A stretch of 64,000 bases of DNA from Candidatus Alcyoniella australis (GTDB lineage Bacteria > Lernaellota > Lernaellaia > JAVCCG01 > Alcyoniellaceae): positions 13,315-77,314 of the forward strand of contig JAVCCG010000093.1 in NCBI GenBank assembly GCA_030765605.1. The letters are read 5' to 3'. The position numbers were made by a program, and so were the translations under genes. The first letter of the stretch is position 1. The number at the start of each line of letters is the position of its first letter. The notes beneath the pieces were generated by a model. The model ran no database searches. It saw only the letters and a list, made by a program, of their open reading frames with translations, and was not told the origin of the DNA. This document shows, piece by piece, positions 31,327 through 59,367 of the stretch.

Positions 31327-31758
31327 TCAATTGCCGGTGATCGAGTCGATCAGCAGATACAGCGCTGTTTCGACCAGCATGCCGCCTGCGCGTTGGTAGG
31401 CGTGTGTGCGCAGAAACTCGGGCTCAAACGGGTCGTCGAACCCATCGCGGTAGATCAGCCGACCGCGCGAGTCGAAATCGAGCAGCAACGGTCCGGCAAT
31501 CGGCTGCTCGGGGGGCGTATAGCGCGGCGTCAATGAGGCCTCAAGGCCCATTGAATTGAGGTCGAACGCCTCGATCGGCGGACGCGGGCCCGCATAGGCC
31601 GGGGCGAGAGTGCGGTAATCAAGGTATCCCAGGTAGACCGGCGAGAGCCCGAGCTCTTGAACGCCGTCTGTCTGCGCAACCTGGTCGTCGGCCCACGCGC
31701 TCAAGCTCGGCGCGACTATCAGCAGCACGGCGAGCAGACTAGCCGCAGCAAACCGCAT
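31327..31758 (-). CDS. Exported protein of unknown function overlapping the upstream gene
   Basis: A 143-residue protein with a clear signal peptide (L-L-A-V-L-L-I-V-A-P, cleavage after S-A-W-A). The mature part has Y-L-G-Y-L-D-Y-R-T-L, P-R-Y-T-P-P-E-Q-P and a hydrophobic C-terminal segment L-V-E-T-A-L-Y-L-L-I. No family is recognised. The first 20 bases overlap, in a different frame, the end of the FG-GAP gene (stop at 31739), so translation is probably coupled. It lies upstream of the sigma/anti-sigma pair on the same strand. Confidence 0.65.
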   Translation of the reverse strand: MRFAAASLLAVLLIVAPSLSAWADDQVAQTDGVQELGLSPVYLGYLDYRTLAPAYAGPRPPIEAFDLNSMGLEASLTPRYTPPEQPIAGPLLLDFDSRGRLIYRDGFDDPFEPEFLRTHAYQRAGGMLVETALYLLIDSITGN

Positions 31759-33250
31759 CGTCGCCTGTGTCGTCGTCGCCCGGGCAATCATCGTCGTCAC
31801 CTCCACCCGCGTCATCGTCGTCCGCATCGTCGTCATCGCCCGTGTCGTCGTCGTCATCGTCGGGCAGATATGGATTATACATCCCGCTGCGGCGATTGTC
31901 GGCCTGGGACGTGGCCCAGTGGACCATGCCCGGGCCAAAACTCCAGTCCGCGCAGGTGTAGACGTTGACCGAGCCCTGGCTTTGCTCAAGATACGATCCG
32001 AGCACCACAAGCTCGGGGCTGCCGTCGCGGTCCAGGTCGGCCAGGGTCGGGCCGTTGAGGTAGACGATGCCGTAGGGCCGCAGGGGGAAGCCGGGCAGGG
32101 CCGCGCCCTGGGCGTCCACGCCGAACACAAAGCCGTAGTCGCCGTCGCGCAGATTGTTGGTGAAGATAATCTCCAGCCGCGAGTCGCCGCTGATGTCTGC
32201 CAGCACAATGTTGCCCTCGACCCCGCCGGTGATCAACAGCGGGAAGCCGGGGAATGCCGAACCGTCGTGCTCGATCACGAAAAGGTTGTCGGCCTCGTAC
32301 AGTCCTCCCGCGCGGCCCACGACAACCTCCGGATTGCCGTCCTGGTCAATGTCGCCCACTGCCGGCGGACAGTAGCTCCAGGCGTCGCCCAGATCAAAAG
32401 GCCAGCCCTCAAGCTCCGCGCCGTCGATGTCCGTGGCGTGCACGCGGTTGAGATCGCCGTGGGTCACGCTGAGGATCTCCAGCGTGCCGTCGCCGTCCAG
32501 GTCGACCAGCGCCGGGCTGCCGTAGCTGTAGGTCTCATCGGCGATGGTCCGCGGAAAACCGTCCATCAGCGCGCCGTCGCGCTCGAACAAGTACAGGCTG
32601 CGAAAGGAGCAGATCGCGATTTCGGGTTGGCCGTCGTTGTCCACATCGCCCACTGCCGCGGAGGTGGCGGGCACGTGATCCAGGGCCACGGGCCAGGGAC
32701 CGGCCGCCGCGCTCAGGTCGCCGTTATAGGCGTAGAGGTAACCCACGCCGCTGCCGTGTTCACCGACGATGATCTCGAGTTTGCCGTCACCGTCCAGGTC
32801 GGCCAGGGTCGGCTCGTTGTACATTGCGCCCGAGTGCGGCAGGGCCGTGGAGTTCAGCAATGCGCCGCTGCCGGAGAACACGTGCAGCTTGGGCTGAGGA
32901 TTGCCCCCGGTGAGGTCGCGGGTGTTGACTACGATCTCCGGGGACGAGTCGCCCAGCACGTCGCCCACGGCCGCGGGGGTCGCGGCCAGGCCGCTGAGCG
33001 CCACGTTGAACAGCTCGGTTCCGTCCGGATCCCAGGCGATCAGCCGCTGACCCATGGTGGCGGCGATCAGCTCGAGTTGCGGATCACCGTCGATGTCCGC
33101 GACCGTCAGGCCGTGCTGGCCCCAGAACATGCTGTTGAGCGCCACGGTCTGGGGAAAACCGGGCAACTGTTCGATCTGTGCTGCTGCGGACGCGGTAAAA
33201 ATAATCGCCAGGGCCAGCGTAACAACCGTCCGTCTGAAGATGCGTCTCAT
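31739..33250 (-). CDS. Secreted FG-GAP/VCBS propeller with Asp-rich, CCG-terminal tail
   Basis: A 503-residue exported protein. The signal peptide is A-L-A-I-I-F-T-A-S-A-A-A, cleaved near residue 24. The body carries at least eight FG-GAP-type repeats with a calcium-binding core such as D-I-D-G-D-P-Q-L-E-L, D-L-D-G-D-G-K-L-E-I, D-V-D-N-D-G-Q-P-E-I and D-L-D-R-D-G-S-P-E-L, i.e. an integrin-alpha-like propeller. The last ~45 residues are Asp-rich and end D-D-A-V-C-C-G. Three other exported proteins in the window end the same way. It starts 27 bases after the amidase gene and is very likely co-transcribed with it. Confidence 0.82.
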   Translation of the reverse strand: MRRIFRRTVVTLALAIIFTASAAAQIEQLPGFPQTVALNSMFWGQHGLTVADIDGDPQLELIAATMGQRLIAWDPDGTELFNVALSGLAATPAAVGDVLGDSSPEIVVNTRDLTGGNPQPKLHVFSGSGALLNSTALPHSGAMYNEPTLADLDGDGKLEIIVGEHGSGVGYLYAYNGDLSAAAGPWPVALDHVPATSAAVGDVDNDGQPEIAICSFRSLYLFERDGALMDGFPRTIADETYSYGSPALVDLDGDGTLEILSVTHGDLNRVHATDIDGAELEGWPFDLGDAWSYCPPAVGDIDQDGNPEVVVGRAGGLYEADNLFVIEHDGSAFPGFPLLITGGVEGNIVLADISGDSRLEIIFTNNLRDGDYGFVFGVDAQGAALPGFPLRPYGIVYLNGPTLADLDRDGSPELVVLGSYLEQSQGSVNVYTCADWSFGPGMVHWATSQADNRRSGMYNPYLPDDDDDDTGDDDDADDDDAGGGDDDDCPGDDDTGDDAVCCG

Positions 33251-33277
33251 TGATCAATCCTCAATTGTTGCACGGTG

Positions 33278-35965
33278 TCATCCACAACATTCGTTGTCGT
33301 CATCGTCGTCCTCGCCCGTGTCGTCGTCATCGTCAATCATATCGTCGTCGTCATCGTCGCTCGCATCGTCGTCGTCGTCCAGATCGGGCACCAGATAATC
33401 GACGGCCGCGGCGATCAGCTCGGCGCGCACGTCCGCGGAGAGCACGGTCTCCAAGGGAAAGGCCAGATAGACCACGCGGTACGTGTCCGCCTCATGGGTA
33501 ATCGCGGCCGCGTGGTCGCCGTCGCGGTAGAGCAGCGCCACGTCCGACCCTGGCAACGGATCGATGGCGTCGGGCCAGTCGGCGGCGTAGATTGCGGCCT
33601 GGTCGTAGTCGAACTCGAAGGGCCCGATTCCGGCGAAAATCCCAAAGCTCGGATCGATCACGCTGCCGGTTCCCGCGTCGTCGGCCTGGTAGCTCGCACC
33701 CAGGTAATCGGCGTAGAACGTCTGGTCCGCCTGCGAGCCGTTGGCCGCCAAGTCCCAACCGATCTCGCTGCCCGAGATGAACAATGATGGTCCATAGCGC
33801 GAAAACAACTGTTGCTCGACCAGTGAGAGGGTCTCGTCCTGGGTTGACTCCTCGCCCAAAATCCAGAACAGCGCGTCATAGTGATTGAGGTCGACCCGAC
33901 CATCGATCAGGGCGTTGTGGGATGCGCAGTCGAAACCGACCCCGGCCTGGGCCAGGGCCTGGGCGTAGGCGATGGTGTAGTCAAAGCTGTTCATATGTTC
34001 CAGGTACATGCGCTCGATCTCGCCGCCGCCGTAGTAGGGCTCGATCACGTTCTGCCCGCTGTCGAGTCGGTCGAATCCCGAGACCAGCAGCACTTGTCGA
34101 TGGTCGTCGCCCGGGTAGACGGCCAGGGTCTCGCTGGGGAAGCTCTCGCCGCCGGCGTTGGTGGCGCTGACCCGCAAGTACAGCGGACCGTCGACGGTTG
34201 GCTCAATCGACGTGTATTCGTCCGGCACCTGTGCGGCAACGCTGAAGCCGCGGCCGTTTTCGCTGACGTAAACCGTGTAGAACTCGGCCGGATCGCCGTA
34301 GATCCCGCCGTTGTCAGAAGAGGGCTCCTGCCAGTGGATATAAACATCCTGGTTCCCTTCGTAGGTAACGCTCAGGTCCGTGGGCGGCTGGGGCAGGAAG
34401 TGCGGCTCGATCCCGTCGCGCACTGCAAAGTAGCGCACGATCGCCTGATAGATCGAGCGCGCGGCCAGCTCGCGGAACGCCGGTTCCTTGAGCGCCGCGG
34501 CGTCGGCCGGAGTGTCGTGGAACGCCAGCTCGAGCAGTGCGCCGGGCATCTCGTCGTTGTAGTTCGGGTTGATCTCGCCGTACCAATTGGTGTGCTCGCC
34601 GCGATCGGTCCAGTCCGCATCCCAGCCCGCGCGCAGGTCGGCGATCAGCTCGTCGTGAATCGCCGCGCGTAGCTCCAGCGATCCGGCTACGCCGTCGAAC
34701 GGTCCGTCCCAGCCTGCCGAGGAGTAGGCGAAGACGCTGGTGCCGCGCCCCGGGTCCGGGGCGTTGGTGTGAAACGAGACGTAGATCGAATCTTCCCAGG
34801 CCTCGTTCTCCCACTTGGCATAGCGCGGCATGCTGGTCACGGTGTTCGAGGCGCACTCGGGGCAGCCCATCAGCGGCGCGTAGTACAGGCCGGATTCCTC
34901 CCAACGCGGCTTCTGCGATTCCGAACCCATGCCGCCGCCAAAGCGCACCGCGTCGGCGATCACGTAGCGGCCGGCATCCGTACCCATGTTGCTCACCACC
35001 ACCGAGCGGCGCTCGGGCGGATCGTCGGCAATGAAGTAGTAACGGCCCAGGTTGTTAAACGTGAACCCGTCGCGCTGCTGGTCGATGGTGTGCACGGTCT
35101 GGCCGCCGCTGTGGCCCACCACCACCCGCGCGTCCGTGGAGCGGTTGGCGCCGCCGTTGTACCACAGGCCCACGTGGTAATAGCCGTCCGCGGGCAGCTC
35201 GGCCGTAAATTGCGCCAGCGCGGTCTCGACCAGCGACACCGGGGTGTAGCAATAGTCCGCGCCGTAATAGCCCGGGGTGGTTGTGGAGCATTGCCACGGG
35301 CCGCTGAGCGTGCAGGCCTCGTCGTTGTTGTCGATCACCAGTTCCCGGGTCTGCATGTCGCGCTCGCGCGTGGTGTAGACCCCGGCACCGGCGTTGTACA
35401 GGTAGCGCGCTAGGTATTGGTCCACGGTCTCGGCCGTGAGGAAATCCTCGACCAGGCCGTTGGTGTTGCCGCGCTGGGTAATCCAGCCGTAGGTCTCGTG
35501 CAAGTACCAGCCGTGCCCCGCGCTAAGAAAGATCGAGCGGCCGCTGAGAAAGCCCGCGGGCTGCGGCTGGCCGGGATGGGGCAATGACTTGGACCCATGC
35601 GCCTCGAACGGCTTTTGCGGCACAGGCTCGCCGGGGTCGATCAACTTGCCCAAGGGCCGAAAGTCCTCGACTCCGGGGCCGCGGCCGAACACCAGGCAGG
35701 CCGTGCCCGCCGGGGTATCGACCATGCTCGTTGCCAGGGCCTGGGCCAGCAGCTCGGCCGCAAGCTGGTCGATGGTCGGCTGCGGCAGGCTGAGGTAAAT
35801 GTGATAGTCGCCGTCGAGCTGCTCGACCCGCTCGATGGCCGCACCCGGAGGCAGGCTGTTTTTCAGCGTTGCGAAGCCCGGTTGGCTGGCCTGCGCCGTC
35901 GGGCCGAGGAACAGCACAAGTAGGATCAACCACGTTGCGGACCGCGGGCCGACCATGGGAGACAT
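33278..35965 (-). CDS. N-acetylmuramoyl-L-alanine amidase with golvesin-like insert and poly-Asp-CCG tail
   Basis: An 895-residue exported protein. The signal peptide ends near A-Q-A-S (24-27). The Amidase_3 zinc ligands are split: H151 (S-A-G-H-G), E173 and H399 (S-F-H-T-N), with catalytic Glu about 479 (L-L-E-L-A-F-H-D). Between E173 and H399 a ~100-residue golvesin-like beta domain (about 245-345: D-G-Y-Y-H-V-G-L-W-Y and Y-V-I-A-D-A-V-R-F) is inserted into the catalytic domain. A fibronectin III domain (about 525-625) and a domain with a GATase-like look (630-850: L-L-V-S-G-F-D-R, Y-D-A-L-F-W-I-L-G-E) follow. The tail from about 871 is nearly all Asp and ends D-N-E-C-C-G. It cuts peptidoglycan stem peptides; the tail suggests it is held at the surface. 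Confidence 0.82.
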   Translation of the reverse strand: MSPMVGPRSATWLILLVLFLGPTAQASQPGFATLKNSLPPGAAIERVEQLDGDYHIYLSLPQPTIDQLAAELLAQALATSMVDTPAGTACLVFGRGPGVEDFRPLGKLIDPGEPVPQKPFEAHGSKSLPHPGQPQPAGFLSGRSIFLSAGHGWYLHETYGWITQRGNTNGLVEDFLTAETVDQYLARYLYNAGAGVYTTRERDMQTRELVIDNNDEACTLSGPWQCSTTTPGYYGADYCYTPVSLVETALAQFTAELPADGYYHVGLWYNGGANRSTDARVVVGHSGGQTVHTIDQQRDGFTFNNLGRYYFIADDPPERRSVVVSNMGTDAGRYVIADAVRFGGGMGSESQKPRWEESGLYYAPLMGCPECASNTVTSMPRYAKWENEAWEDSIYVSFHTNAPDPGRGTSVFAYSSAGWDGPFDGVAGSLELRAAIHDELIADLRAGWDADWTDRGEHTNWYGEINPNYNDEMPGALLELAFHDTPADAAALKEPAFRELAARSIYQAIVRYFAVRDGIEPHFLPQPPTDLSVTYEGNQDVYIHWQEPSSDNGGIYGDPAEFYTVYVSENGRGFSVAAQVPDEYTSIEPTVDGPLYLRVSATNAGGESFPSETLAVYPGDDHRQVLLVSGFDRLDSGQNVIEPYYGGGEIERMYLEHMNSFDYTIAYAQALAQAGVGFDCASHNALIDGRVDLNHYDALFWILGEESTQDETLSLVEQQLFSRYGPSLFISGSEIGWDLAANGSQADQTFYADYLGASYQADDAGTGSVIDPSFGIFAGIGPFEFDYDQAAIYAADWPDAIDPLPGSDVALLYRDGDHAAAITHEADTYRVVYLAFPLETVLSADVRAELIAAAVDYLVPDLDDDDDASDDDDDDMIDDDDDTGEDDDDDNECCG

Positions 35966-36012
35966 TGTAGTTTATCGAAAAGGGCGCGCCGGATTAATTG
36001 GCCGGGCCATGT

Positions 36013-36372
36013 TTAGTATGAGTGGTCGGTGATCACGTAGCGCTCAGTTCCCAAGTCGTGCCAGACGGTGAAGGTGAAGCCGAACTTGTTGCTTGCGCCG
36101 AAGTCCCAGCTGATGTCCGGGTCGTCGTCGAGCTCCTCGTTGAGCGAGATCAGATTGGAGATCGAGCTTGTGTAGGAGCCGGAGAGCACGCCGCCGGCGC
36201 TCTGGAAATAGATCTCCTCGGCCAGGGCGGCGGTGCGCCCCAGGTTCTCGGCCGCGGCATCGCGCGCACGGGCTCTGAGGCTCAAGAACGAGGGAATGGC
36301 GATCATCGCCAGGATGCCGATGATGCTGATTACAATCAGCAGCTCAATCAGCGTGAACCCTTTACGCTTCAT
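36013..36372 (-). CDS. Type IV pilin-like protein (pseudopilin)
   Basis: A 119-residue prepilin. It begins M-K-R-K-G-F-T-L-I-E, the class III/type IVa leader cleaved after Gly5 to give an N-methylated Phe, followed by the hydrophobic helix L-L-I-V-I-S-I-I-G-I-L-A with Glu at +5. The ATG at 36372 has GGAGG 8 bases upstream; the longer frame to 36456 is an artefact. The C-terminal globular part is short with no disulfide pair, so it may be a minor pilin or pseudopilin. No other pilus genes are close. Confidence 0.85.
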   Translation of the reverse strand: MKRKGFTLIELLIVISIIGILAMIAIPSFLSLRARARDAAAENLGRTAALAEEIYFQSAGGVLSGSYTSSISNLISLNEELDDDPDISWDFGASNKFGFTFTVWHDLGTERYVITDHSY

Positions 36373-36559
36373 CAGCCCGCCTCCATAAGTCTTTCGCCTT
36401 TCAGCATTATCCGAGCGGTACTGCCGTGTCAACCGGCATGGATTACCAATGTGCACCCGGTTGTGTCGTGCGTTCTATTGTGTTCGGCAGACGCCCGAAG
36501 CATTATCCCGATGAGTCCGGCGCACTTCACGGGCCGGACCGGGACTGCGGAGGTCCGAG

Positions 36560-37081
36560 ATGGCGGCGATTCTGGGCGGACTGTTGATTTTCTTGTGTCG
36601 CTTGACAGACGTGACTATGGGCACGATGCGGATACTGCTGATGATCCGCGGACGCAAGGTGATTGCCGGGGTGATCGGTTTTTTCGAGGTGGCCGTGTTT
36701 CTGTTCGCCATCAGCCAGGTGGTGAACAACATGGACAGCGTTTGGAAGTTCCTGGGTTACTGCGGCGGGTTCACCGCGGGTACGATCCTCGGCGGACACA
36801 TCGATCAGCGGCTGGCGATGGGCAACCAGGTGTTGACGGTTTTCGCGCCCAAGACCTGGAACCTGATCGCGGGCGAGCTGCGCGACGCGGGGTTCGGCGT
36901 GACCGAGTTCGACGGCTGGGGCAAGGACGGGGCCGTGACCATGGTCCGCGCGGTGGTCAAACGCCGCTTTCTGCCCCACGCCCTGGACATCATCAACAAG
37001 CTGGAGCCCGACGCCTTTGTCACCGCCTCCGAGATCAGCACGGCACGGCACGGCTACCTCTCGCACGTCAAACGCAAGTAG
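36560..37081 (+). CDS. DUF2179/UPF0316 membrane protein
   Basis: A 173-residue protein with three membrane spans in the first ~85 residues (L-L-I-F-L-C-R-L, V-I-G-F-F-E-V-A-V-F-L-F-A and Y-C-G-G-F-T-A-G-T-I-L-G) and a C-terminal DUF2179 domain (L-I-A-G-E-L-R-D-A-G-F-G-V-T-E-F). The string R-G-R-K-V-I-A-G-V-I-G-F-F-E is characteristic of UPF0316 members. Its role is uncharacterised; the C-terminal domain may bind a small molecule. GGAGG precedes the ATG. Confidence 0.85.
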   Translation: MAAILGGLLIFLCRLTDVTMGTMRILLMIRGRKVIAGVIGFFEVAVFLFAISQVVNNMDSVWKFLGYCGGFTAGTILGGHIDQRLAMGNQVLTVFAPKTWNLIAGELRDAGFGVTEFDGWGKDGAVTMVRAVVKRRFLPHALDIINKLEPDAFVTASEISTARHGYLSHVKRK

Positions 37082-37126
37082 GGGCTGGTGGGTAATTACC
37101 CCACCCCCCACGTGGCGGGGTGGGCC

Positions 37127-37180
37127 GTTGGATTACAACCGGCGTTCTGCGCGAGTTTTGTGGCAGCTTAAAGGTGCCGT
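37127..37180 (+). repeat. Dispersed REP-like repeat with GGCACC-type hairpin
   Basis: GTTGGATTACAACCGG and GCGCGAGTTTTGTGGCAG match the left part and core of copies A-C, but the hairpin is of the other kind (GGCAGCTTAAAGGTGCC, imperfect). It sits between converging genes. Just before it, 37099-37123 hold another inverted repeat, CCCCACCC/GGCGGGGTGGG. Confidence 0.65.
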
Positions 37181-37182
37181 TG

Positions 37183-37992
37183 CTAGGCGGCGCCTCCACC
37201 GGCTTTATCGACCTTGATCTGGTCCTGGTACTTCTTGTAGACCTCCGAGGCCAGCTGCAGATAGGCGCGGGAGACCTCGCTCTTGGGGTCCTGAAGGATC
37301 AGCGGCTTGCCGATGGCGAAGATCGTCGAGTACTCCTCCATCCGCGGGATCACGGTCTTGAATACCACCTCCTCGGGGAAAGTGGCCCAGACCTGCTGCA
37401 CCACCTCGCGCGCGATGCGGTAGTTCTCGTCGTACATCGTCAGCAGCAGCCCCTCGATCACCAGCTCGGGATTCACGTTGTGGCGGATCTTGCGGATGAT
37501 CTTGAGGATCTGCGTCAGGGTCTTGAGGCTCAGCGGCTCGCACTGCATCGGCACCAGCACCGAGTCCGAGGCTGACAGCGCGTAGATCGTCATCTCGCCC
37601 ATGCCCGGCGGGCAGTCGATGAGGATGAAGTCGCACGAGCGGCGGATGGCCTCGATGTACTTCTTAAGCAGCGGCGCGCTGCCGCGCTGCTTGACGAACT
37701 TCTCGAACTCCTCGGCCATGGTGCCGCGGCCGTAGGGAATCGCCTTGAGCCATTTAAGTCCCGTAGGCTGGATGATCTCGGCCAGCTTGCGCTTGCCCAT
37801 GAACACGTCGTAGATCCCGCGCTCCATTTGCGAGCGCGAGAGCCCCAGGCCGAGCCCCACGGCGTTCTGCTCGTCCAGGTCGATCACCACGGTGCGGCAT
37901 TTCATTGAGGCCAACGAGGCGGCCAGGTTGATGGTCGACGTGGTCTTGCCAACGCCTCCCTTCTGGCTGGCGACGGCGATCACTTTTCCCAT
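37183..37992 (-). CDS. ParA/Soj-type ATPase
   Basis: A 269-residue P-loop ATPase of the ParA/MinD family. The deviant Walker A motif K-G-G-V-G-K-T-T is at 11-18, followed by I-D-L-D-E-Q-N (A' motif) near 38-44 and D-C-P-P-G-M-G in the centre. The usual Asp-Pro-Q of chromosomal Soj is replaced by D-E-Q-N. It has no N-terminal DNA-binding extension, and no ParB is adjacent, so it could segregate or position a protein complex rather than the chromosome. The ATG at 37992 lies opposite the direction of the next gene. Confidence 0.85.
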   Translation of the reverse strand: MGKVIAVASQKGGVGKTTSTINLAASLASMKCRTVVIDLDEQNAVGLGLGLSRSQMERGIYDVFMGKRKLAEIIQPTGLKWLKAIPYGRGTMAEEFEKFVKQRGSAPLLKKYIEAIRRSCDFILIDCPPGMGEMTIYALSASDSVLVPMQCEPLSLKTLTQILKIIRKIRHNVNPELVIEGLLLTMYDENYRIAREVVQQVWATFPEEVVFKTVIPRMEEYSTIFAIGKPLILQDPKSEVSRAYLQLASEVYKKYQDQIKVDKAGGGAA

Positions 37993-38246
37993 CTGGCAAT
38001 CCCCCAGGTCTGCTGTGGACCCCTGGAAACGGTATTCTTCTTCATACTGTGCGCCTTGCTCGTTACGGTAAAAGCGCAGACAAAAACGCGCAGATAGCTC
38101 CTTTTTAGGCTAGCAGCGGCTTTAACGGGTGTCAACACGGCGCGTGGCAAATCCCAAATCTGCGTAAAGCGTACGGGCAAGTTGCGGCTGGTCTTGTAAT
38201 CAACGTCGATATATACTTCTGTGTCGATATCCCGGAGGAGATTGCG

Positions 38247-39467
38247 ATGCTGAAAAACCGTTACTTTGTGAGCCTGTTTACCCTGTTGCTGGCCTTTTGC
38301 CTGTGCTTTGCGGTCCTCTCGTGCGAGGAGGAGGACGACCCGGGGAGCGCCTCCATCGGCGACGACGATGACGATGATTTGGTCGACGACGACGATGATG
38401 ATCTCGACGACGACGACGACGATGATCTCGACGACGACGACGACGACGATGATGATGATGACGACGATTACGCCAACGCGCTGATCGCCGGGGACAAGAA
38501 CCTGGTGTTGACCAAGCTCTACTCGGGCAGCGCCGACTCGTGGAGTGGGCTGGAGAGCTTCGCGATGACTCCCACCGACCTGGTGCGCATGGCCGCGGAC
38601 GAGATCTACATCAGCGGCATGGTCGCGGCCAGCGATACCCTGGAAGGCTCGATCTACAAGTACGAGGGCACGACCTGGACCGAGCAGACACTGCCCTCCC
38701 AGGCCGAGGACTGGAGCATGCAGGGCATGGCGTTCAGCGGCGCAGGCGCGGGCTGGGCCGTGGGCGCAGCGGCTGACGGCGGGGATACCGACGGCCTGAT
38801 ATTGCAGCTCGACTCGGGCACTTGGACCGACGTTTCGCCCGTTGCGGCGCAGGACGTGACCTTACTCGACGTTGACGCGCTGGCCTCGGGCGAGGCCTGG
38901 GCCGTGGGCCAGAATCTGGTCAGTGGTGCGCCGGTGGTATTGAGCTACGGCCCGACCAAGGGAACCTGGTCCGCCGAAACTTTGCCGGCGATCGGCTACG
39001 ACGCCTGGCTGCGCAGCGTGTCCGTGGTTTCGGCCACCGAGATTTACGTAGGCGGCGGCGAGAGCGCGGCCGGCGCCGGGGGCGCCCCGTTTGTGCTGAG
39101 CTACGACGGTTCGACCTGGTCGGCGTTGACAATCCCGGCCAAGATCGCCCACGGCCAGGTCAACTGCGTGGACGCGATCTCCGGGCTGCTGCTGGTCGCG
39201 GGCTTTGACAACGATGCGGAGGACGGCTTCGTCTGGTACAAGGGCGGGGCCGGGCTGACCGATGCTACACCGACTACAACCCTCGACGACGAGAACTACC
39301 TGGGCTGCTCCCTGGCCGGTTTGACCACGGGCTACGTGGTGGGCGAGGGGCTCGACTCCGCGCTACGCCAGCCGCTGGTCTACGCCTGGACCGGCAGCGC
39401 GTTGACCCTGGTGGGCGGGCCGGACCCGGACAATGTTTCGGGCCTGAGCAACGTCGTCGCCTACTGA
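38247..39467 (+). CDS. Asp-rich lipoprotein with beta-propeller-like domain
   Basis: A 406-residue lipoprotein. The signal peptide ends V-L-S-C, and the lipid-bearing Cys is followed by E-E-E-D-D and then about 35 residues that are almost all Asp (residues ~39-74). The rest is a repeated beta protein with blades of the type G-W-A-V-G, E-A-W-A-V-G, E-I-Y-V-G-G-G and T-G-Y-V-V-G-E, like YCF48/Kelch-type propellers. It has no catalytic motif and may bind a surface ligand. A GGAGGAG site precedes the ATG. It reproduces at its N-terminus the acidic tether seen at the C-terminus of other proteins here. Confidence 0.78.
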   Translation: MLKNRYFVSLFTLLLAFCLCFAVLSCEEEDDPGSASIGDDDDDDLVDDDDDDLDDDDDDDLDDDDDDDDDDDDDYANALIAGDKNLVLTKLYSGSADSWSGLESFAMTPTDLVRMAADEIYISGMVAASDTLEGSIYKYEGTTWTEQTLPSQAEDWSMQGMAFSGAGAGWAVGAAADGGDTDGLILQLDSGTWTDVSPVAAQDVTLLDVDALASGEAWAVGQNLVSGAPVVLSYGPTKGTWSAETLPAIGYDAWLRSVSVVSATEIYVGGGESAAGAGGAPFVLSYDGSTWSALTIPAKIAHGQVNCVDAISGLLLVAGFDNDAEDGFVWYKGGAGLTDATPTTTLDDENYLGCSLAGLTTGYVVGEGLDSALRQPLVYAWTGSALTLVGGPDPDNVSGLSNVVAY

Positions 39468-39524
39468 CGACCACCCGGCCGTACGCTGCTGCTGCGGCCA
39501 CGGTAGATACGACACGGAGTGAAG

Positions 39525-40037
39525 ATGACACCGATTGCCAAGGCCCTGCCCGTTGCGCTGATCTGCGCCCTGTTGTTCGTTCCCGTCGCTGCCCAAGGGT
39601 TGGGCGAGGAGGCCGTGGACTTCGGCCTGAAGAGCCTCGAGGGGCGCACCGTCTACCTCTCCGACTTTCTGGGCGAGAAGGTGATCCTGGTCAGCTTTTT
39701 CGTCACCTGGTGCAAGCCCTGCGAGCGCGAGTATCCTCAGCTCGAGAAGCTCTACCAGCAATATAAGGACCAGGGCTTGGTGGTGCTCGGGATCTCGGCC
39801 GACAACTCAAGCTCCGTGGCCCAGGTCGGACCGACCATGCGGCGCTCCAAGGTGAGCTACCCGGTGCTGCTGGACCAGGACAACCAGGTGCTGGCTCAAT
39901 ACAATCCCAACAGCAAGTTTCCCTACACCCTGATTATCGCCAAGGACAAGACGATCCAGTATGTGCACGAGGGATTCTCACCCGGAGACGAGCAGGCGCT
40001 GGAGACTAAAATCAAGCAGTTGCTGGAGGCCCAATAA
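39525..40037 (+). CDS. TlpA/ResA-type thioredoxin-fold protein
   Basis: A 170-residue exported redox protein. The signal peptide ends V-A-A-Q (about 24). The active site W-C-K-P-C lies at 62-66, preceded by L-V-S-F-F-V-T. The cis-Pro region reads S-K-F-P-Y-T. Such proteins reduce disulfides in the periplasm. The stop overlaps the start of the outer-membrane gene by one base, a pairing that suggests assembly or redox care of that protein. The ATG at 39525 is preferred to the GTG two codons earlier because its spacing to the GGAG is better. Confidence 0.85.
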   Translation: MTPIAKALPVALICALLFVPVAAQGLGEEAVDFGLKSLEGRTVYLSDFLGEKVILVSFFVTWCKPCEREYPQLEKLYQQYKDQGLVVLGISADNSSSVAQVGPTMRRSKVSYPVLLDQDNQVLAQYNPNSKFPYTLIIAKDKTIQYVHEGFSPGDEQALETKIKQLLEAQ

Positions 40038-41686: not shown

Positions 41687-41727
41687 TCCGGCCGCAGACA
41701 ACGACATTATGTTTCAAGGAGGATCCG

Positions 41728-48431: not shown

Positions 48432-48446
48432 GATTCCTAATCCAGG

Positions 48447-49562: not shown

Positions 49563-49569
49563 TGCGCAA

Positions 49570-49599: not shown

Positions 49600-49734
49600 G
49601 GCCTGTGCGGCGGAGTTGGTGGTCGTCCCGCCGAGAAATGCGCCATGTAAGGCGCGCTTAGGTGGAGTTTTCAAATTGCTCATTGCGCAAAAACTTTGTT
49701 CCTGTGCAGTCCTCTTTTGTCAATCAGCTTGTAA

Positions 49735-49807
49735 TGGGCCCACCAGGATTCGAACCTGGGACCGACCGGTTATGAGCCGGTGGCTCTAGCCGCTGAGCTA
49801 TGGGCCC
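49735..49807 (-). tRNA. tRNA with CAU anticodon (likely tRNA-Ile2; Met possible)
   Basis: A 73-base tRNA without encoded CCA. Acceptor stem GGGCCCA/TGGGCCC, anticodon loop CTCATAA (CAU). The short D loop (AGCGGCTAGA) and the GGGCCC acceptor resemble the lysidine-modified Ile2 tRNA rather than elongator Met, but the two cannot be separated with certainty by sequence. It follows rpoD on the same strand. Confidence 0.9.
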
Positions 49808-49887
49808 AAGTGGCCTGAACCAGCGCCTGAAAAAGCGCTCTATTATCCTTCCCGTGGCCGTGTTGTCAAGCCTGTCAGGCTGCCGTA

Positions 49888-51666
<1,779 letters not shown>

Positions 51667-51679
51667 TACTCGCCCCCTA

Positions 51680-53470
51680 TTAATCGCCGAAGGCGTTTAT
51701 TACACCACTGTCTACTTCGCCAATCTGTCTGCTCAGTTCCTGCTTCCTTTGCAGCAACTCGCGCTCGCGCTGGGGATCGCCCTTGGCCTGCGCCAGCTCC
51801 TGCGCGATTTGCCGCGCCTTGCCGCGCAGGTCGGCCAGTCGGATCCTGCGCTCACAGTCGTAAAATGCATCGCGTAGATTGCTCTCGTCGATCGGCAGCT
51901 CGCTTAGAATAGCGCCGGCCAGCTCGCGTGCCAACTCCTGATCCTCGAGCCCGGCCAATAGCTGCTCGACGCTCTGGCGCGAGCTGCTCCCTCGATTGTC
52001 CAACAACAGCTGCAACGCGGCTCCCACGAAGCGATCCCTGACAATCTCGATCAATCCCGCGTCCTCTATTTCCTCTAACAGCGAGGGGTCCCGTGTGGCA
52101 AGGGCCAGCAGCATGGATTCCTCTTTAGGCGTCGGCCTGCGCTCCGACTGCGCCGCCGGGACCGCGGCCGCCGAGGGCTTGCGCCGCTCGTTGCGCGCCG
52201 TCTGGATCTGCTGCCAGATCGCCGACTCGGCCACGCCCAGCCGACCCGCGGCCTCGCGCACCAGCAGCTCGCGTCGCGTGGCGTCCTCGACCCGCGCCAG
52301 TACCTGGCCGATGCGTTGGCCTGCGTGCACCTTGGCCTCAATGCTGCGGCCGGCCTCGGCCACGCGGTTGGCGATAAAGCGTTCGAGGATCGGCTCGGCC
52401 TGATCGAGCATTTCGCGCAACGGATCGGCCCCGTGCTCGCGCACGAAGCTGTCCGGGTCGTGCCCCTGGGGCAGCAGCACCACCAGCGGCTGTTGCGGTT
52501 TGTCCAGGAACAGCTCCATCGTCCTCCAGGCTGCCTTGCGTCCGGCGGCGTCGCCGTCGAAGAGCAGCACGATTCGCTCGGTATAGCGCGACAGCAGCCG
52601 CGCGTGATCCTCGGTCAGAGCCGTACCGCAGGTCGCCACTGCCTCGCCGATGCCGTGGGCTGCCAAAGCCAGCGAGTCGAAGTAGCCCTCGACAACCACC
52701 GCGCGCTTCGTCTGGCGTATCGCCTCGCGCGCCGTGTCCAGCCCGAACAGCACCCGACTCTTGTGGTACAGCTCGGACTCCTGGCTGTTGAGGTACTTGG
52801 GCTCGTCGTCCCCCAGCGCCCGTCCGCCAAAGCCCACGCAGCGCCCCTGCACGTCGCGGATCGGGATCATCACCCGGTTGCGGAACTTGTCGACCAGCGA
52901 GCCGCGGCGGCTTACGCCGATCAGTCCCAGAACCTCGGCGCGCTTAAGGTCGGCCTTGCGCGAGCGCAAATGCCGTACCAGCCCTTCCCACGAGTTGGGC
53001 GCAAAGCCCAGGCTGAAACGCTTGACCAGCTCGTCCGAGATCCCTCGCGCTGCCAGGTATTCGCGTACGTGCTTGCCGTGGCCATTATCGGCCAGCGACG
53101 CGGTGAAAAAACCCTCGGTCTCGGCGTTGACCGCCAGCAGCAGATCGCGCTCGCCGCGACGGCGCGACTGAGCATTGGACTCGGGTACCTCGATCCCCAC
53201 CCGCTCGGCCAACGAACGCACCGCCTCGGGGAAGCTCATCCCCGTGATCTTCATCACGAAGTGGATCGGGCCGCCGCCCTCGCCGCAACCGAAGCAGTGA
53301 AAGGTCTGGCGCTCGGGGCTGACCACCAGGCTCGGATCCTTGTCCGGGTGGAACGGGCAGACCGCCCGCCAGTTGCGTCCGGCCTTCTTCAGCGTCAGGT
53401 GCTCCGATACCACCTGGACGATGTCCAGCCGCGACTTGAGCTGTTCGATGACCTCTTCGGGGATGGCCAT
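51680..53470 (-). CDS. dnaG: DNA primase DnaG
   Basis: A 596-residue primase. The zinc ribbon C38-P-F-H41 ... C59-x2-C62 (C-F-G-C-G-E-G-G) is at the N-terminus. The TOPRIM core shows V-V-V-E-G-Y-F-D and L-L-F-D-G-D-A-A-G. The C-terminal helicase-binding part is present. It makes RNA primers at the replication fork. Start ATG at 53470 (the TTG one codon before is an alternative). It lies 13 bases upstream of rpoD. Confidence 0.96.
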
Positions 53471-53552
53471 CAATCGCCTCTGGGCGACCCGGGCGAGCCG
53501 GGTCCGGTTTGCGGCTTAGGTTTGCGCGACCCTGTCGGTGGCGTCAGTGTGA

Positions 53553-53996
53553 TCAGCTCAATTGCTTGCGCACCAGCTCGCTGACGATCTTGCCGTCGGC
53601 GGCCCCGCGCACCTTTGCCATCACGGCTTTCATCACCGCGCCCATCTGCTTGGGTGAGTCAGCGCCGACCTCTTCGATTGCCTGTTTGACCAGCGGGGTC
53701 AATTCATCGACCGAGAGCTGCTGCGGCATGTATTCGCCCAGGATCTCCAACTCGGCGCGCTCGCCGTTTGCCAGATCCTCGCGGTTCGCCGCGGCGTAGC
53801 TCTCGATCGACTGTTTGCGTTGCTTAATCTGACTCGCGATCACCTCGATCACGGCCTGGTCGTCCAGCTCGCCACTGCCCTTGAGCTCGCGGTTCTGCAC
53901 CGCGGCCTTGAGCATTCTCAACGTGGAGAGGCGCAGCTCTTCCTTGGCCTTGAGCGCGGTTACGCAGTCGTCGTTGATCCGCTTCTTAAGCGACAT
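53553..53996 (-). CDS. yqeY: GatB/YqeY domain protein
   Basis: A 147-residue all-helical protein of the YqeY family (L-S-T-L-R-M-L-K-A-A-V-Q-N near residues 22-34, Y-M-P-Q-Q-L-S, and M-G-A-V-M-K-A-V-M-A near the end). Such proteins resemble the tail of GatB and may bind tRNA. It is two bases upstream of the rpsU stop, in the conserved S21-YqeY-DnaG-RpoD order. Confidence 0.92.
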   Translation of the reverse strand: MSLKKRINDDCVTALKAKEELRLSTLRMLKAAVQNRELKGSGELDDQAVIEVIASQIKQRKQSIESYAAANREDLANGERAELEILGEYMPQQLSVDELTPLVKQAIEEVGADSPKQMGAVMKAVMAKVRGAADGKIVSELVRKQLS

Positions 53997-53998
53997 TT

Positions 53999-54199
53999 CT
54001 AGTAACGACCTACCTTGCGCATCTTCTTCAGCAGTCTTTTGCGTGCAGCGGCAGCTTTGCGTTTACTTTTAACGCTCGGCTTCTCGTAATGCTCGCGACG
54101 GCGCAGCTCCGAGAGGATACCCGCCTTCTCGCACTGCTTGCGGAAGCGACGCAAAGCGCCCTCATAAGACTCGTTCTCTCTAATACGAACGCCTGGCAT
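53999..54199 (-). CDS. rpsU: 30S ribosomal protein S21
   Basis: A 66-residue basic protein with the S21 signature [18 protein letters not shown] and a C-terminus rich in Arg and Lys. It opens the macromolecular synthesis operon (rpsU-yqeY-dnaG-rpoD), linking translation, replication and transcription initiation. The ATG at 54199 has an AGGGG site upstream. Confidence 0.96.
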
Positions 54200-54435
54200 C
54201 TAGAAACATCACCCCTTTCTATGATCAATTTGGGCGTTTCACGCTCGCCCGACAGCTCGGAATTCATTCGCGCCGCAGCGCGTATCCGTTAGTGCCCCGC
54301 GCGCCTATGGCGCGCGGGGGAACTAGTGTATTGATTCGCAAGCGGATGTCAAGGCTCAGCGCTACGAGCGTTGCACGGGTTGCGATTTGCGTCCGGCGGG
54401 TTGTCTCGGCGGCCGGGCAGTGGTAATCAAAGCTA

Positions 54436-55761
54436 ATGTTTTCACCTGATTCCCAGTTAGTGCGCGAGGGGCCCTCTCGGTTGGCCGCTGAACTGGCGCG
54501 CTGGTGCGCGCTGCTGTTTGTGGGCATCGGAGTGGGCCGCGTCGCGCCCGAGGGCCTGACCCGCTTCATGGCCCTGGTCGGCGCCGCGCTGCTGGCGAGA
54601 ATCTCCGTGAGCTTCCTCTACACCGATATTCAGTACGTCCGGGCGCGCCGCGGTGCGGGCAAGGGCCTGCGCGCCGAACCGTTGGTCGCCATGCTGTGGG
54701 TCGCAGCCTATGTGCTGCTGCTGTACCCCGGCAGGTTCGACGGACCGTTCCCCCTGGGGATGAGCGGCACGGCGGCGCCGCTGCTGTTGTTCATGTTCGT
54801 GGCTGCCGCAGCCCAACTCGCCGCTGAGCGGTTGGCCGATCTGCCCTCGTCGGACAACGAGGAGGATGAGGAGCAACGGCCCGGGGAGCGCGCCGCGCGC
54901 CGCGATCCGTACTTGCTGTCGACCAAGGTCGTGGCCCTCGAGGCGCTGGCCTGGCTGGTCGGCGGCCTGGCGTTCTGTCTGACTTGGCGCTCGATCCCCT
55001 CGGCGTTGTGGGGCCTGTGCGCGGGCAGCTTCCTGGCGTTGGTCTTCGGCCTGCTCGCACTGTGGTCCTCCGGCGGACTGAGGAGGATCGTGCCTCAGAC
55101 CCACGGGATCGAGCACCCGCCGCACTCGCTGCTGATGGTCAGCATGGGCGCGGCGATGCTGATCGACGCGGTGCTCGCCGCACACCTGCTCCCGGCCCAG
55201 GATGTACCGGTCTACGGCCGGCTGTTCGTTGCCGGCAAGTTCATGCTGCTGCCCGGCGTGGCGATGTCGGCGATCGTAATGCAGACCATGTCCGATCCCA
55301 CGGCGCACCTTGCCGAGCGCCGCCGCTCGTTCTCGCTGTCGCTGACTTTCCTGGTGCTGATCCTTGCCGGAGGAGTGTCCCTGGCCTTGGTCAAGCCCGA
55401 GTTCGTGGTCGAGGTGCTGTTCGGCGCGGACCCGGGCAACGCGGCCAAGCATCTGGGATTCGCGATGCTCGCCCAAGCCCTGGGCATCATCTGCGTCATG
55501 CTGATGCGGATGAACACCTGGTCCAAGGGTCGCCAGGGCTCGATCATCGGGCCGTTTCTCGCGCTGTTGCTCGCCGCGGGCTACGTGGCCTGGCATCGCC
55601 GCATCGCCGACTTCCTGGCGATACAGATCACGCTGTATACAGTGGTCACCCTGCTGATGCTGATCTGGACCGCGCGCATGCTCGGCTCGGGCGTGACCCG
55701 GGCCTATGACCTTGAAAGCTCGGTTCAGGCCCAGGAAGCGCCCCGGCGCGACAGCGTGTAA
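54436..55761 (+). CDS. Polytopic membrane protein (MATE/flippase-like)
   Basis: A 441-residue membrane protein with about eleven hydrophobic spans and one acidic cytoplasmic loop (N-E-E-D-E-E-Q-R-P near 147-155). The rhythm of the spans and repeated short loops resemble MATE/Wzx-type lipid or drug exporters, but no signature sequence is recognised. Being alone between an essential operon and short genes, its context tells little. The start ATG has no obvious ribosome site. Confidence 0.55.
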   Translation: MFSPDSQLVREGPSRLAAELARWCALLFVGIGVGRVAPEGLTRFMALVGAALLARISVSFLYTDIQYVRARRGAGKGLRAEPLVAMLWVAAYVLLLYPGRFDGPFPLGMSGTAAPLLLFMFVAAAAQLAAERLADLPSSDNEEDEEQRPGERAARRDPYLLSTKVVALEALAWLVGGLAFCLTWRSIPSALWGLCAGSFLALVFGLLALWSSGGLRRIVPQTHGIEHPPHSLLMVSMGAAMLIDAVLAAHLLPAQDVPVYGRLFVAGKFMLLPGVAMSAIVMQTMSDPTAHLAERRRSFSLSLTFLVLILAGGVSLALVKPEFVVEVLFGADPGNAAKHLGFAMLAQALGIICVMLMRMNTWSKGRQGSIIGPFLALLLAAGYVAWHRRIADFLAIQITLYTVVTLLMLIWTARMLGSGVTRAYDLESSVQAQEAPRRDSV

Positions 55762-55788
55762 CCCGCATCTAAAAACCGTAAATCGAGC

Positions 55789-55794
55789 TATAAT
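55789..55794 (+). promoter_or_regulatory. TATAAT -10 element directly before a GTG start
   Basis: A perfect -10 consensus TATAAT ends six bases upstream of the GTG at 55801. A transcript from it would begin at or very near the start codon, so the gene may be leaderless. A clear -35 element is not seen. Confidence 0.4.
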
Positions 55795-55800
55795 TAAGAC

Positions 55801-56037
55801 GTGTCTATTTGCGACAGCCCGTTCTGCGCGGTACGCAAGGATCTGATCAACCACGGCGGTGGCTGGCTGTGGTGGGAGCTGACCATGCGCAGCGGTGAAG
55901 TACGGCGTGTGCGCCTGCTCAAGACCTGGGTCGGCATGGGGCCTGCCGGGCCGTTCATCTGGGTCGCGGACGAGAACGATCCCACCGCAGAGCTGCGCCT
56001 CGACCTGGTCCAGGTCGTTCACATGCGGCCGACATAG
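55801..56037 (+). CDS. Small cytoplasmic protein of unknown function
   Basis: A 78-residue protein (GTG start) with C-D-S-P-F-C near the N-terminus, G-G-G-W-L-W-W-E-L-T, V-G-M-G-P-A-G-P-F-I-W-V and a C-terminal L-V-Q-V-V-H-M-R. Its strand-turn-strand rhythm looks like a small beta-barrel domain. No family is recognised. No Shine-Dalgarno is present; a TATAAT six bases upstream suggests a leaderless mRNA. The reading frame and codon use look real. Confidence 0.5.
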   Translation: MSICDSPFCAVRKDLINHGGGWLWWELTMRSGEVRRVRLLKTWVGMGPAGPFIWVADENDPTAELRLDLVQVVHMRPT

Positions 56038-56194
56038 GGTTGAGCGTTTCCATGCTTATTACGGATCAGCAACAGCAACGCCGATGCGCGCAACCGGTCG
56101 AATTATAATGCGATTATCGATTGAAAGCGTAACCTTGCGCTTTGACAACCCGCGGTAAAGGGTTTAGAAACGATTCGGCCGAGGAGGACTATTT

Positions 56195-56611
56195 TTGAGA
56201 GCCGCCGCCGCATTTATCCTCGCATTGACCCTGGTGTTGCCGCTCGTGTCCGACGTCCGGGCAGCGGGATCGGCCGCCGAGTCCGACCAGATAATCCAGA
56301 TCAACGACCAGCAGCCCGCGGGAAGCGAGCTGATCGAGCTGTCCAAGGGGCAGACTATCGAGTTTTGCATCAGCAGCAATCCCACCACCGGCTACACTTG
56401 GCAGATCTCAGGCGTGGACGAGGCGCTGCTCGAGCTGCTACGCAACGATTATCAGGTCCAGGGACCGGGGATCGGAGCCGGCGGAGTGCGGACCGTGGTC
56501 TACCGCGCCAAGGCCGACGGCGAGTGCACGATCCAGATGATCCACTGCCGATCCTGGCAGTGCGAGCAGACCACCGTCGGCAGCTACAAAGCCCGAATCA
56601 CCATCCGCTGA
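56195..56611 (+). CDS. Chagasin-like (I42) cysteine protease inhibitor
   Basis: A 138-residue exported protein. The signal peptide ends at V-R-A-A. The I42 signature N-P-T-T-G-Y-T-W is at 62-69; the second loop has G-I-G-A-G-G-V-R-T, and the third reads C-R-S-W-Q in place of the usual R-P-W. These three loops plug the active site of papain-like proteases. Two papain-like protease genes follow directly, the first 40 bases on. The start is a TTG at 56195 with GAGGAGG eight bases upstream. It would restrain those proteases in the periplasm or at the surface until they are needed. Confidence 0.85.
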   Translation: MRAAAAFILALTLVLPLVSDVRAAGSAAESDQIIQINDQQPAGSELIELSKGQTIEFCISSNPTTGYTWQISGVDEALLELLRNDYQVQGPGIGAGGVRTVVYRAKADGECTIQMIHCRSWQCEQTTVGSYKARITIR

Positions 56612-56651
56612 AAGCGTGACAACTGTGACGAATCAACGCTTGGAGTTGTAA

Positions 56652-57995
56652 ATGATCAAACGAGCCTGCGTGCCCATGCTCTGCTGCCTGATAATCCTGG
56701 CCGCCTGCACCGCTGTTGCGGCCGATCGGCTGACACCGGCTGCGGTGCAGGCTGCCATCGACGAGGCCGGAGCGCAGTGGAGCGCCGCGACAAGTCCGCT
56801 GTCGCAACTGACCTACGAGCAGCTGTTGACGGTCGCCGCGGGGCTCGAGCTGGACTCGTGGGCCTTTGAGCAGACGCCGATCTGGAACAGCGGGACCAAG
56901 GACGAGCTGCCGGCGATTTTCGACTGGCGCTACAATCCCGGCGACTTCACCACCGTGCCCAAAAATCAGGGCTACTGCGGCGCCTGCGCCGGATTCGCCA
57001 TGAGCTCGGTGCTCGAATCGTTAATCGAGATCTATTACGAAGATCCCAACCTCAACCCCGATCTGAGCGAGGCGCACGTGTTTTTCTGCGGCGGCGGCCA
57101 GTGCAATCGCGGCTCGACATCCGAGATGATGCTGCGCTACGCCCGCTACTATGGCGTGCCCGACGAGGCCTGCATGCCCTATACCGCGGGCTCCAACGCC
57201 CAAGACCAGAGCTGCTCCGCGTCGTGCCCCGACTGGCAGGAGCGCGCCCAGGCGATCATCGATTACAAGCGCGTGCCCACGGACCCGACGAGCATCATGC
57301 AGGCGCTTAACGAGGCGCCGCTGTTCGCCGGGATGATCATCTACCTCGACTTCGAGCTCTACGGCGGCGGGGTTTACGAGCACGTACTCGGGCCGTCGAT
57401 CGGTGCCCACGCGGTGCAGATGGTCGGCTACAACGCCGAGGAGCAGTACTGGATCTGCAAGAACTCCTGGACCCCGGGCTGGGGCGAGGAGGGATTTTTC
57501 CGTATCCGCTGGGGCCAGGCCGAGATCGAGAACTGGCTGTACATTGCCGAGTACAACGGCGGCGTGCCCTGTTCGCTGAACACCAAGCCCGAGCTGGGAC
57601 CGGCACGCTACTACGTGGGCGATCAAGAGCTCGGCGATGCCCCGCTGGTGGGCCAAAACGAGGACTTCAAGGTGCGGATCGACTTCGCCGACCTCGAGTG
57701 CAACCTGGCCGGCGGCGACATTATGGTCGACCAGGGCGAGGGGTACGAGCGGCTCGACCGGCTGCCCAAGGACGCCGGGTGCAGCTCCGACGAGTACGGG
57801 CCGATCGTCTTTTCGCCCGAGGAGCTGAGCCTGGGCGAACACACGATCAATGTGCGGGCCGAGGACCGTTGCGACGACCAGAGCTCGACCCTCGTGCTGC
57901 ATTTCACTGTGACCGAGCAGCCGCCGGACCGTGGCGGCGACGACGACTCGGCGGACGATGACGACGACGGCGACAGCGGTGGCTCCTGCGGCTGA
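56652..57995 (+). CDS. Papain-like (C1) cysteine protease with Asp-rich SCG-terminal tail, copy 1
   Basis: A 447-residue exported protease. The signal peptide ends at A-V-A-A, followed by a propeptide-like helical region (30-85). Catalytic residues are Q106 (oxyanion), C112, H253 (G-A-H-A-V) and N271 (K-N-S-W). The residue after the catalytic Cys is Ala (C-A-G-F-A), not the conserved Trp. C-terminal to the protease domain is a ~100-residue beta domain (P-A-R-Y-Y-V-G-D-Q to about 425). The last ~20 residues are Asp-rich and end G-G-S-C-G. The layout matches the next gene residue for residue, so the two are tandem duplicates. Substrates are unknown. Confidence 0.85.
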   Translation: MIKRACVPMLCCLIILAACTAVAADRLTPAAVQAAIDEAGAQWSAATSPLSQLTYEQLLTVAAGLELDSWAFEQTPIWNSGTKDELPAIFDWRYNPGDFTTVPKNQGYCGACAGFAMSSVLESLIEIYYEDPNLNPDLSEAHVFFCGGGQCNRGSTSEMMLRYARYYGVPDEACMPYTAGSNAQDQSCSASCPDWQERAQAIIDYKRVPTDPTSIMQALNEAPLFAGMIIYLDFELYGGGVYEHVLGPSIGAHAVQMVGYNAEEQYWICKNSWTPGWGEEGFFRIRWGQAEIENWLYIAEYNGGVPCSLNTKPELGPARYYVGDQELGDAPLVGQNEDFKVRIDFADLECNLAGGDIMVDQGEGYERLDRLPKDAGCSSDEYGPIVFSPEELSLGEHTINVRAEDRCDDQSSTLVLHFTVTEQPPDRGGDDDSADDDDDGDSGGSCG

Positions 57996-58020
57996 CGCGC
58001 TGTTGTGAACGGAGATTTCG

Positions 58021-59367
58021 ATGAGGCACGCGGCCTGTAGCCTTTTGATAATTGCGACGCTGCTGCTGGGCGCGGCCGGCGCGTGGGCCCTTGACGCGCA
58101 GTTTATCGCCGAGCTTCAGCAGTCGATCGAGCAGCGCGGCCTGCAGTGGCAGGCCGGGCCCAACCCGATCACCGAGCTGAGCCCCGAGCAGTACCGCCGC
58201 ATTGCCGGAGGCCTGTTGCTCGACGATTGGTCCCTGGCGCAAGTGCCCATCTGGCGCGGCGATGCCAAGAACACGCTGCCCGATCAGCTGGACTGGCGCG
58301 CCAATCCGCTGAATTTCACCACCGGCGCCAAGAACCAGGGTCGCTGCGGCGCGTGCGGCGCGTTCGCCGGCTGCTCGCTGCTCGAGTCGCTGATGGAGAT
58401 CTACTACGACGACCCGGACCTCGAGCCCGATATGTCCGAGGCGCACCTGTTTTTCTGCTCGGGCGGACAATGCGACGGCGGGACCACTGCGGACACGGTG
58501 CTGGATTACATGGTGGAATACGGCACGCCCGACGAGCAATGCTTCCCCTACGAGGCAGGCGATGACGGCGAGGACCAGCCGTGCTCAGACCATTGTTCGG
58601 ACTGGGAGCAGCGAGCCGAGGCGATCATCGACTACAGCTGGGTCTCGGGCAATTCCCAGAGCATCATGCTAGCGCTAAACGAGGGGCCGCTGCTGGTGGG
58701 GATGTTGACCTACGAGGATTTCGGCGCCTACACCGACGGGATCTACGAGCACACCACGGGCGAACAGACCGGAGCCCACGGCGTGCTGATGGTCGGCTAC
58801 GATGAGGACGAACAGTACTGGATTTGCAAAAATTCCTGGGGCGCGGCCTGGGGCGAGGGCGGGTTTTTCCGCATTCGCTGGGGCCAGTGCGAGATCGAGC
58901 GCTACGTGTTTAAGGGCGAGTACGCCGGAGGGGTTCCCTGTTCGCAGAACACCGCACCCGAGCTTGGACCGGTGCGCTACTACGTTGGCGAGACGCAGCT
59001 GGAGCAGCCCCAGATCAACGTTGGCGACGCACTGCGGATCGAGGTCGAGTTCCAAGACGCCCAGTGCAACCTGGCCGGCGGCGACATCCAGATCGACCTG
59101 GGCGAAGGCCAGGGCTTTGAGCGCTACCTGCGCCTGCCCTCCGACGCCGGTTGCTCGTCCAACGAGTACGGCCCGATCATCTACGAGCCCGAGGACCTGA
59201 GCGTGGGCGAACACAGCGTGCACTTCCGCGCCGTAGACCGCTGCGACGACCGCTCCGAGATCCTCGATCTGAGCTACAGCGTATCCGAACCGACGCCCGA
59301 TCAGGACGACGACGACGACGATGCGCAAGACGCCGAGGAAGACGACGACGCGGGCTGCTGCTCCTAG
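58021..59367 (+). CDS. Papain-like (C1) cysteine protease with Asp-rich CCS-terminal tail, copy 2
   Basis: A 448-residue duplicate of the preceding protease. Q106, C112 (C-G-A-F-A), H253 (G-A-H-G-V) and N271 (K-N-S-W) occupy identical positions, and again the residue after the catalytic Cys is not Trp (here Gly). The C-terminal beta domain (V-R-Y-Y-V-G-E-T) follows, then an Asp/Glu-rich tail that ends D-D-A-G-C-C-S. It has more cysteines than copy 1 in the propeptide-adjacent region. The signal peptide is L-L-L-G-A-A-G-A-W-A. A good AACGGAG site precedes the ATG. The chagasin-like gene at 56195 is the obvious regulator. Confidence 0.85.
   Translation: MRHAACSLLIIATLLLGAAGAWALDAQFIAELQQSIEQRGLQWQAGPNPITELSPEQYRRIAGGLLLDDWSLAQVPIWRGDAKNTLPDQLDWRANPLNFTTGAKNQGRCGACGAFAGCSLLESLMEIYYDDPDLEPDMSEAHLFFCSGGQCDGGTTADTVLDYMVEYGTPDEQCFPYEAGDDGEDQPCSDHCSDWEQRAEAIIDYSWVSGNSQSIMLALNEGPLLVGMLTYEDFGAYTDGIYEHTTGEQTGAHGVLMVGYDEDEQYWICKNSWGAAWGEGGFFRIRWGQCEIERYVFKGEYAGGVPCSQNTAPELGPVRYYVGETQLEQPQINVGDALRIEVEFQDAQCNLAGGDIQIDLGEGQGFERYLRLPSDAGCSSNEYGPIIYEPEDLSVGEHSVHFRAVDRCDDRSEILDLSYSVSEPTPDQDDDDDDAQDAEEDDDAGCCS

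Follow-up and report, generated by a model that had tools for sequence, protein, structure and literature searches.

Dozens of exported proteins of unrelated families in the class of bacteria that includes Candidatus Alcyoniella australis end in a short tail, in which a cysteine (Cys) close to the free C-terminus follows a spacer rich in aspartate (Asp). Four such proteins are encoded in the window analysed here, the whole 64,000-nucleotide stretch of contig JAVCCG010000093.1, and the tail recurs throughout the class sample. We read it as a phylum-wide C-terminal sorting or anchoring tag whose Cys most probably carries a lipid on its sulfur, attached plausibly by the Lgt paralogues Lgt-B and/or Lgt-C, and we give this reading a probability of roughly 0.45. 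The window's genome (G000) is a metagenome-assembled genome (MAG) of 4.29 Mb, 98% complete, and the class sample comprises this genome and six relatives (G001–G006), G005 being MAG FR_14 (FEN-1099/Ca. Lernaellota). For the phylum FEN-1099, the names Ca. Lernaellota and Podoxiota have been put forward (PMC13248872). Genes and signal peptides were called by home-made scripts on MAG contigs, and the number of tails given for any one genome is a minimum.

The tailed proteins of the window and their tails are:
31739..33250, (-): FG-GAP repeat protein, 503 residues, signal peptide, end ...DDTGDDAVCCG-stop (translation, Pfam FG-GAP)
31742..31864, (-): Asp-rich spacer and terminal CCG of the FG-GAP protein (PDDDDDD...DDAVCCG)
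33278..35965, (-): Golvesin_C, Amidase_3 and fn3 protein, 895 residues, signal peptide, end ...EDDDDDNECCG-stop (translation, Pfam)
33281..33382, (-): Asp-rich spacer and terminal CCG of the amidase
56652..57995, (+): papain-like protease (Peptidase_C1), 447 residues, signal peptide, end ...DGDSGGSCG-stop (translation, Pfam)
57921..57992, (+): Asp-rich spacer and terminal SCG, with Cys at -2, the rarer register
58021..59367, (+): papain-like protease paralogue (Peptidase_C1), 448 residues, signal peptide, end ...EEDDDAGCCS-stop (translation, Pfam)
59296..59364, (+): Asp-rich spacer and terminal CCS of the second papain-like protease

The initial annotation, made from the letters of the window, had these four ends and the Asp-rich stretches before them exactly right by translation, and the signal peptides that it assigned are read as signal-peptide-like N-termini on all four proteins; the papain protein at 56652 also has an ambiguous lipobox-like LAAC near its N-terminus. 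Unrelated families are indeed present, as was claimed, but not four of them: the two papain genes, 25 bases apart and 53% identical, are a tandem duplication, so that the four proteins stand for three independent families. On the (-) strand, the FG-GAP gene follows the amidase gene after a gap of 27 bases, and no further plausible gene within the window has an end that carries the tail.

Beyond the window, the tail-pattern search of the genome and its relatives that had been suggested found tails in all seven class genomes, far above controls. In G000, the DDD..CCG-stop form matched 51 times in the forward and 13 times in the reverse direction, where a reversed-pattern control gave one match and none; the matches to the form include overlapping starts and reduce to 25 distinct gene ends, plus one with a longer spacer. 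This form occurs in five of the seven class genomes and in none of 34 genomes of other phyla. The DD..CGC-stop form is present in all seven (controls 0–1) and is in frame in all matches listed; G003 alone has at least 45 short-tail genes, comprising about 41 CGC ends and four CCG ends. A stricter pattern, five Asp and then C-[CG]-[CG]-stop, was scanned over 84,980 named species, a set that may omit genomes very close to the window, and returned 33 stretches, 19 of them in FR_14 and 14 as single matches in 14 unrelated organisms. Spread in this way, the single matches are about what chance would give, which leaves FR_14 as the sole species with more than one. As far as patterns with an Asp spacer have been searched, the tail is limited to this clade. 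Loose patterns ending in TRR were too noisy, since TRR includes TGG, and served only to spot the GCGC form.

Read from the sequences, the conserved core of the tail is G-C-x-x-COOH behind the Asp-rich spacer, with CCG, GCGC, CCGC and GCG[ALKW] as its variants. The CCG/SCG/CCS signature first proposed is true of the window proteins but is just one dialect; the constant of the class is Cys at -3, found in 63 of 64 pattern-collected tails under a filter that required Cys at -1 or -2 only. One family ends in CCG in the window's genome and in GCGC or CCGC in other genomes, the tail being kept while the dialect changes. Together with seven long-form proteins, described below, the 64 short tails fall into 37 sequence families (40% coverage), which bears out the modularity ascribed to the tail. 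Papain homologues picked by their catalytic domain were collected by a whole-protein search of the seven genomes, which gave 21 with readable ends, from six genomes, after exclusion of proteins matching the 306–445 module only. All 21 are tailed at 34–53% core identity, with an acidic spacer and a Cys at -3 in 18 and at -2 in three; tailless homologues, which had been named as what would speak against the tail, are not found among them. The identity of the last residue is free (C, G, S, L, A, K, V and W all occur), the chain stops 0–2 residues past the last Cys, and a single tail Cys is present in 11 of the 21. It is this combination of a Cys at -3 or -2 throughout, a varied last residue and often one Cys that points to G-C-x-x-COOH as the core.

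Tails with one Cys argue against a disulfide inside the tail. They also count against a metal or redox tag, in which the acidic stretch and Cys would serve as a surface binding site for calcium or thiophilic metals: Asp-rich runs generally bind calcium, but one Cys by itself, two residues before the C-terminus, makes no metal site, and we hold such a role to be very unlikely.

A home-made predictor gave a signal peptide for 51 of 60 complete genes with tails and for 154 of 447 untailed genes in the same loci (p = 5e-14), and the view that the tail is borne by exported proteins is thereby strengthened. The cargo includes subtilases, papain-like proteases, M14 carboxypeptidases, phosphoesterases, an amidase, a peptidyl-arginine deiminase, FG-GAP and Kelch propellers and PKD domains. 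Such a predominance of secreted hydrolases and beta-propellers, together with GspD in all seven genomes, would suit a secretion signal whose free C-terminus is read by a type II or other system, the Cys being unmodified and the proteins perhaps released. Type II systems, however, recognise folded proteins, we know of no short C-terminal Cys secretion signal, and the presence of the motif in forms bearing a transmembrane (TM) helix would be left unexplained, which makes this reading improbable. Read-through or frameshifting into a hidden TM helix was considered and rejected, with two cases among 61 tails and 17 among 473 other genes; given also the mixed stop codons of tail genes (TGA, TAA and TAG), neither this nor selenocysteine accounts for the ends, and the statement that nothing hydrophobic or basic follows the tail holds under both the frameshift and the read-through checks.

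LPXTG, PEP-, PGF-, GlyGly- and MYXO-CTERM tags use a helix to park the protein in the membrane, and an intramembrane or membrane-bound enzyme removes the helix. GlyGly-CTERM with rhombosortase and LPXTG with sortase resemble the short tail as C-terminal surface-sorting tags of exported proteins, but require a TM helix and a basic end; motifs, helix and basic end are all absent from the tail sequences, which the initial annotation had rightly kept apart from both systems. Its separation of the tail from MYXO-CTERM is not supported, the same genomes holding long forms with the same spacer and GC(GC), as well as a myxosortase-type protease. TIGR03901 has one to four matches per genome in six class genomes and no match in G003. 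Most are C-terminal long forms, for example DDDDDDDDGCGCVIGGGADGAGLAFAMLALGLAALAVSLRKKR, in which the spacer and GC(GC) are followed by a TM helix and an Arg/Lys end; one G004 match is internal, and a C-terminal long form was not recovered for the G001 match. No core homology links long-form to short-form proteins in the collected set. Nine short tails searched against NCBIfam matched no model up to E = 10, TIGR03901 included (a long-form control scored 23.3 bits against its cut-off of 20), in agreement with the earlier remark that no named CTERM family has this form.

The same six genomes carry a MrtX-like CPBP protease, weak in G001, and G003 again has no match. The EExxxR and HxxxN motifs, present in six of six, recall the myxosortases (Mrt_core; MrtP, MrtC, MrtX), but the class proteins score under every myxosortase subfamily cut-off; against NF040914 Mrt_core (cut-off 100), those of G002 and G006 pass (115 and 111 bits) and that of G000 reaches 98.8, these being the three tested. 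To judge by its sequence, the short tail is thus kin to MYXO-CTERM but free of a membrane segment, the signature minus the helix and the basic end. The two share their occurrence on many exported families, a GC/GCGC Cys signature past a low-complexity spacer, a signal peptide and a type II secretion system in the genome (PMC11980579), and differ in that short tails have no TM helix, Arg/Lys end or TIGR03901 match and occur without a myxosortase match in G003. G003, where at least 45 short tails occur and neither an MrtX match nor a long form was found, shows that the short tail does not need myxosortase. The loss of both myxosortase and long forms from G003, like the identity of spacer and motif between the two forms, would also fit functionless remnants of MYXO-CTERM tags that have lost their membrane part; a vestige would decay, however, whereas the Cys is kept within two positions in all 21 papain homologues and families keep the tail despite changes of dialect, so that we give this explanation next to no credence.

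Candidate enzymes for a lipid on the Cys are found among the LGT-family genes. In M. xanthus, Lgt heads the candidates for the acyltransferase that would lipidate the MYXO-CTERM Cys (PMC11980579). Three LGT-family genes (LGT Pfam over cut-off) occur in each of the seven class genomes and in one of 53 genomes of other phyla; in G000 and G005, the count of matches exceeds three because one gene is matched in pieces. The co-occurrence of the tail with candidate enzymes, a check proposed at the outset, fails for myxosortase in G003 and holds for the LGT family in seven of seven. In the Lgt tree, groups B and C together make up a clade restricted to the class, with support of 98/93 (100/99 in a smaller tree), and group A, which adjoins a gene read as lspA-like, presumably represents the ordinary enzyme. 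Lgt-B and Lgt-C align over nearly all of E. coli Lgt (5azb) and keep two Arg, which we take to be essential Lgt residues, and are our candidates for the tail-lipidating enzymes. G034, a 9 Mb genome of another phylum and the one among the 53 that has three LGT-family genes, also has four MYXO-CTERM matches, and Lgt expansion may thus accompany such tags. In G004, a 1209-residue protein directly downstream of Lgt-B (L232:6473-10102, contig C27) has an internal MYXO-CTERM-like match followed by an OmpA-like C-terminus; it recalls M. xanthus MXAN_5598 (PMC11980579).

In the mechanism that we propose, tailed proteins would be exported by Sec, and the Asp-rich stretch would act as a flexible spacer before G-C-x-x-COOH. 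Because the short tail is the MYXO-CTERM signature without helix and basic end, its chain end would correspond roughly to that of a mature, myxosortase-cut MYXO-CTERM protein. The near-invariant Cys at -3 would then receive a lipid on its sulfur, plausibly diacylglycerol, with Lgt-B and/or Lgt-C as the proposed donor enzymes. A Cys lipid is the best reading of the near-fixed register, of the fact that one Cys is enough, of the signature common with a tag believed to carry a lipid and of the expansion of Lgt. In its most specific form, this proposal makes the tailed proteins C-terminal lipoproteins, surface-anchored through the lipidation of a membrane-free G-C-x-x-COOH by class-specific Lgt paralogues, with neither helix nor sortase-type cleavage; we regard that form as possible but doubtful. 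N-terminal lipoproteins (Lgt/LspA/Lnt) would share the lipid on a Cys thiol, with extra Lgt paralogues in the class genomes, but here the Cys is C-terminal, a lipobox is lacking (2/51 only) and there is no signal peptidase II step. Eukaryotic Rab/CaaX prenylation, at CC, CxC or CCxx ends, likewise places one or two Cys near a free C-terminus; its enzymes and substrates are cytosolic, and the likeness is an analogy of working with no kinship claimed.

Several points weigh against lipidation by these enzymes. Lgt is known to act on membrane-tethered substrates, and these tails have no tether. The window's genome has Lgt-A, Lgt-B and a canonical-type third copy, and no Lgt-C. The neighbourhoods of Lgt-B and Lgt-C contain no consistent tail gene and give no operon support, the one case being a tail gene near Lgt-C in G001. 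The association of the Lgt expansion with tails is a correlation within one clade, and the expansion could serve ordinary lipoproteins. N-terminal lipoboxes, in two of 51 tailed signal-peptide proteins and 17 of 154 others, are not significantly depleted (p = 0.17). Lipidation, the identity of the enzyme and the surface location of the tails are what we infer from the observations above. A disulfide anchor, in which the tail Cys pairs with a surface or matrix partner or with another tailed protein and the acidic spacer serves as a stalk, is a serious rival: it needs no lipid enzyme or membrane tether, and a single Cys, as in 11 of the 21 papain tails, suffices. No partner was found, however, and the near-fixed -3 register with its preceding G, like the motif held in common with the long forms, suggests that an enzyme recognises the tail and speaks against a free thiol, so that we consider this anchor unlikely.

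The membrane-free tail, which looks like the myxobacterial surface-anchoring tag minus its membrane segment, may be a new means of attaching proteins to the cell surface. A helix-free tag with the same signature Cys would uncouple the modification step from the cleavage step, which is the question left by the myxosortase work; G003, with tails and no myxosortase match, amounts to a natural knock-out, and the class supplies named candidate enzymes in Lgt-B and Lgt-C. From the tail, it would also be possible to predict which proteins make up the surface proteome of this uncultured phylum.

Some further observations concern the tailed genes and their surroundings. Two G001 contigs (C100 and C72; L167 and L168) break off right at a tailed gene's stop codon, seemingly because repeated spacers and paralogues interrupt the assembly at that point. 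Region 306–445 of the papain proteins matches a module present in many other class proteins. An AlphaFold model of the papain pair, built on a two-sequence alignment, has a mean predicted local distance difference test score (pLDDT) of 40, is fairly confident only at about 310–427, falls below 50 in the tail and is uninformative on function. Just beyond the end of the tailed FG-GAP/amidase pair, on the same strand, lie a sigma-factor-like gene (30636–31244, (-)) and its anti-sigma-like neighbour (29126–30625, (-)). At the end of the window, G+C drops to 0.45 over 60001–64000, compared with about 0.63 elsewhere, around an AAA-type ATPase gene (60063–61049), and this segment is possibly acquired DNA.
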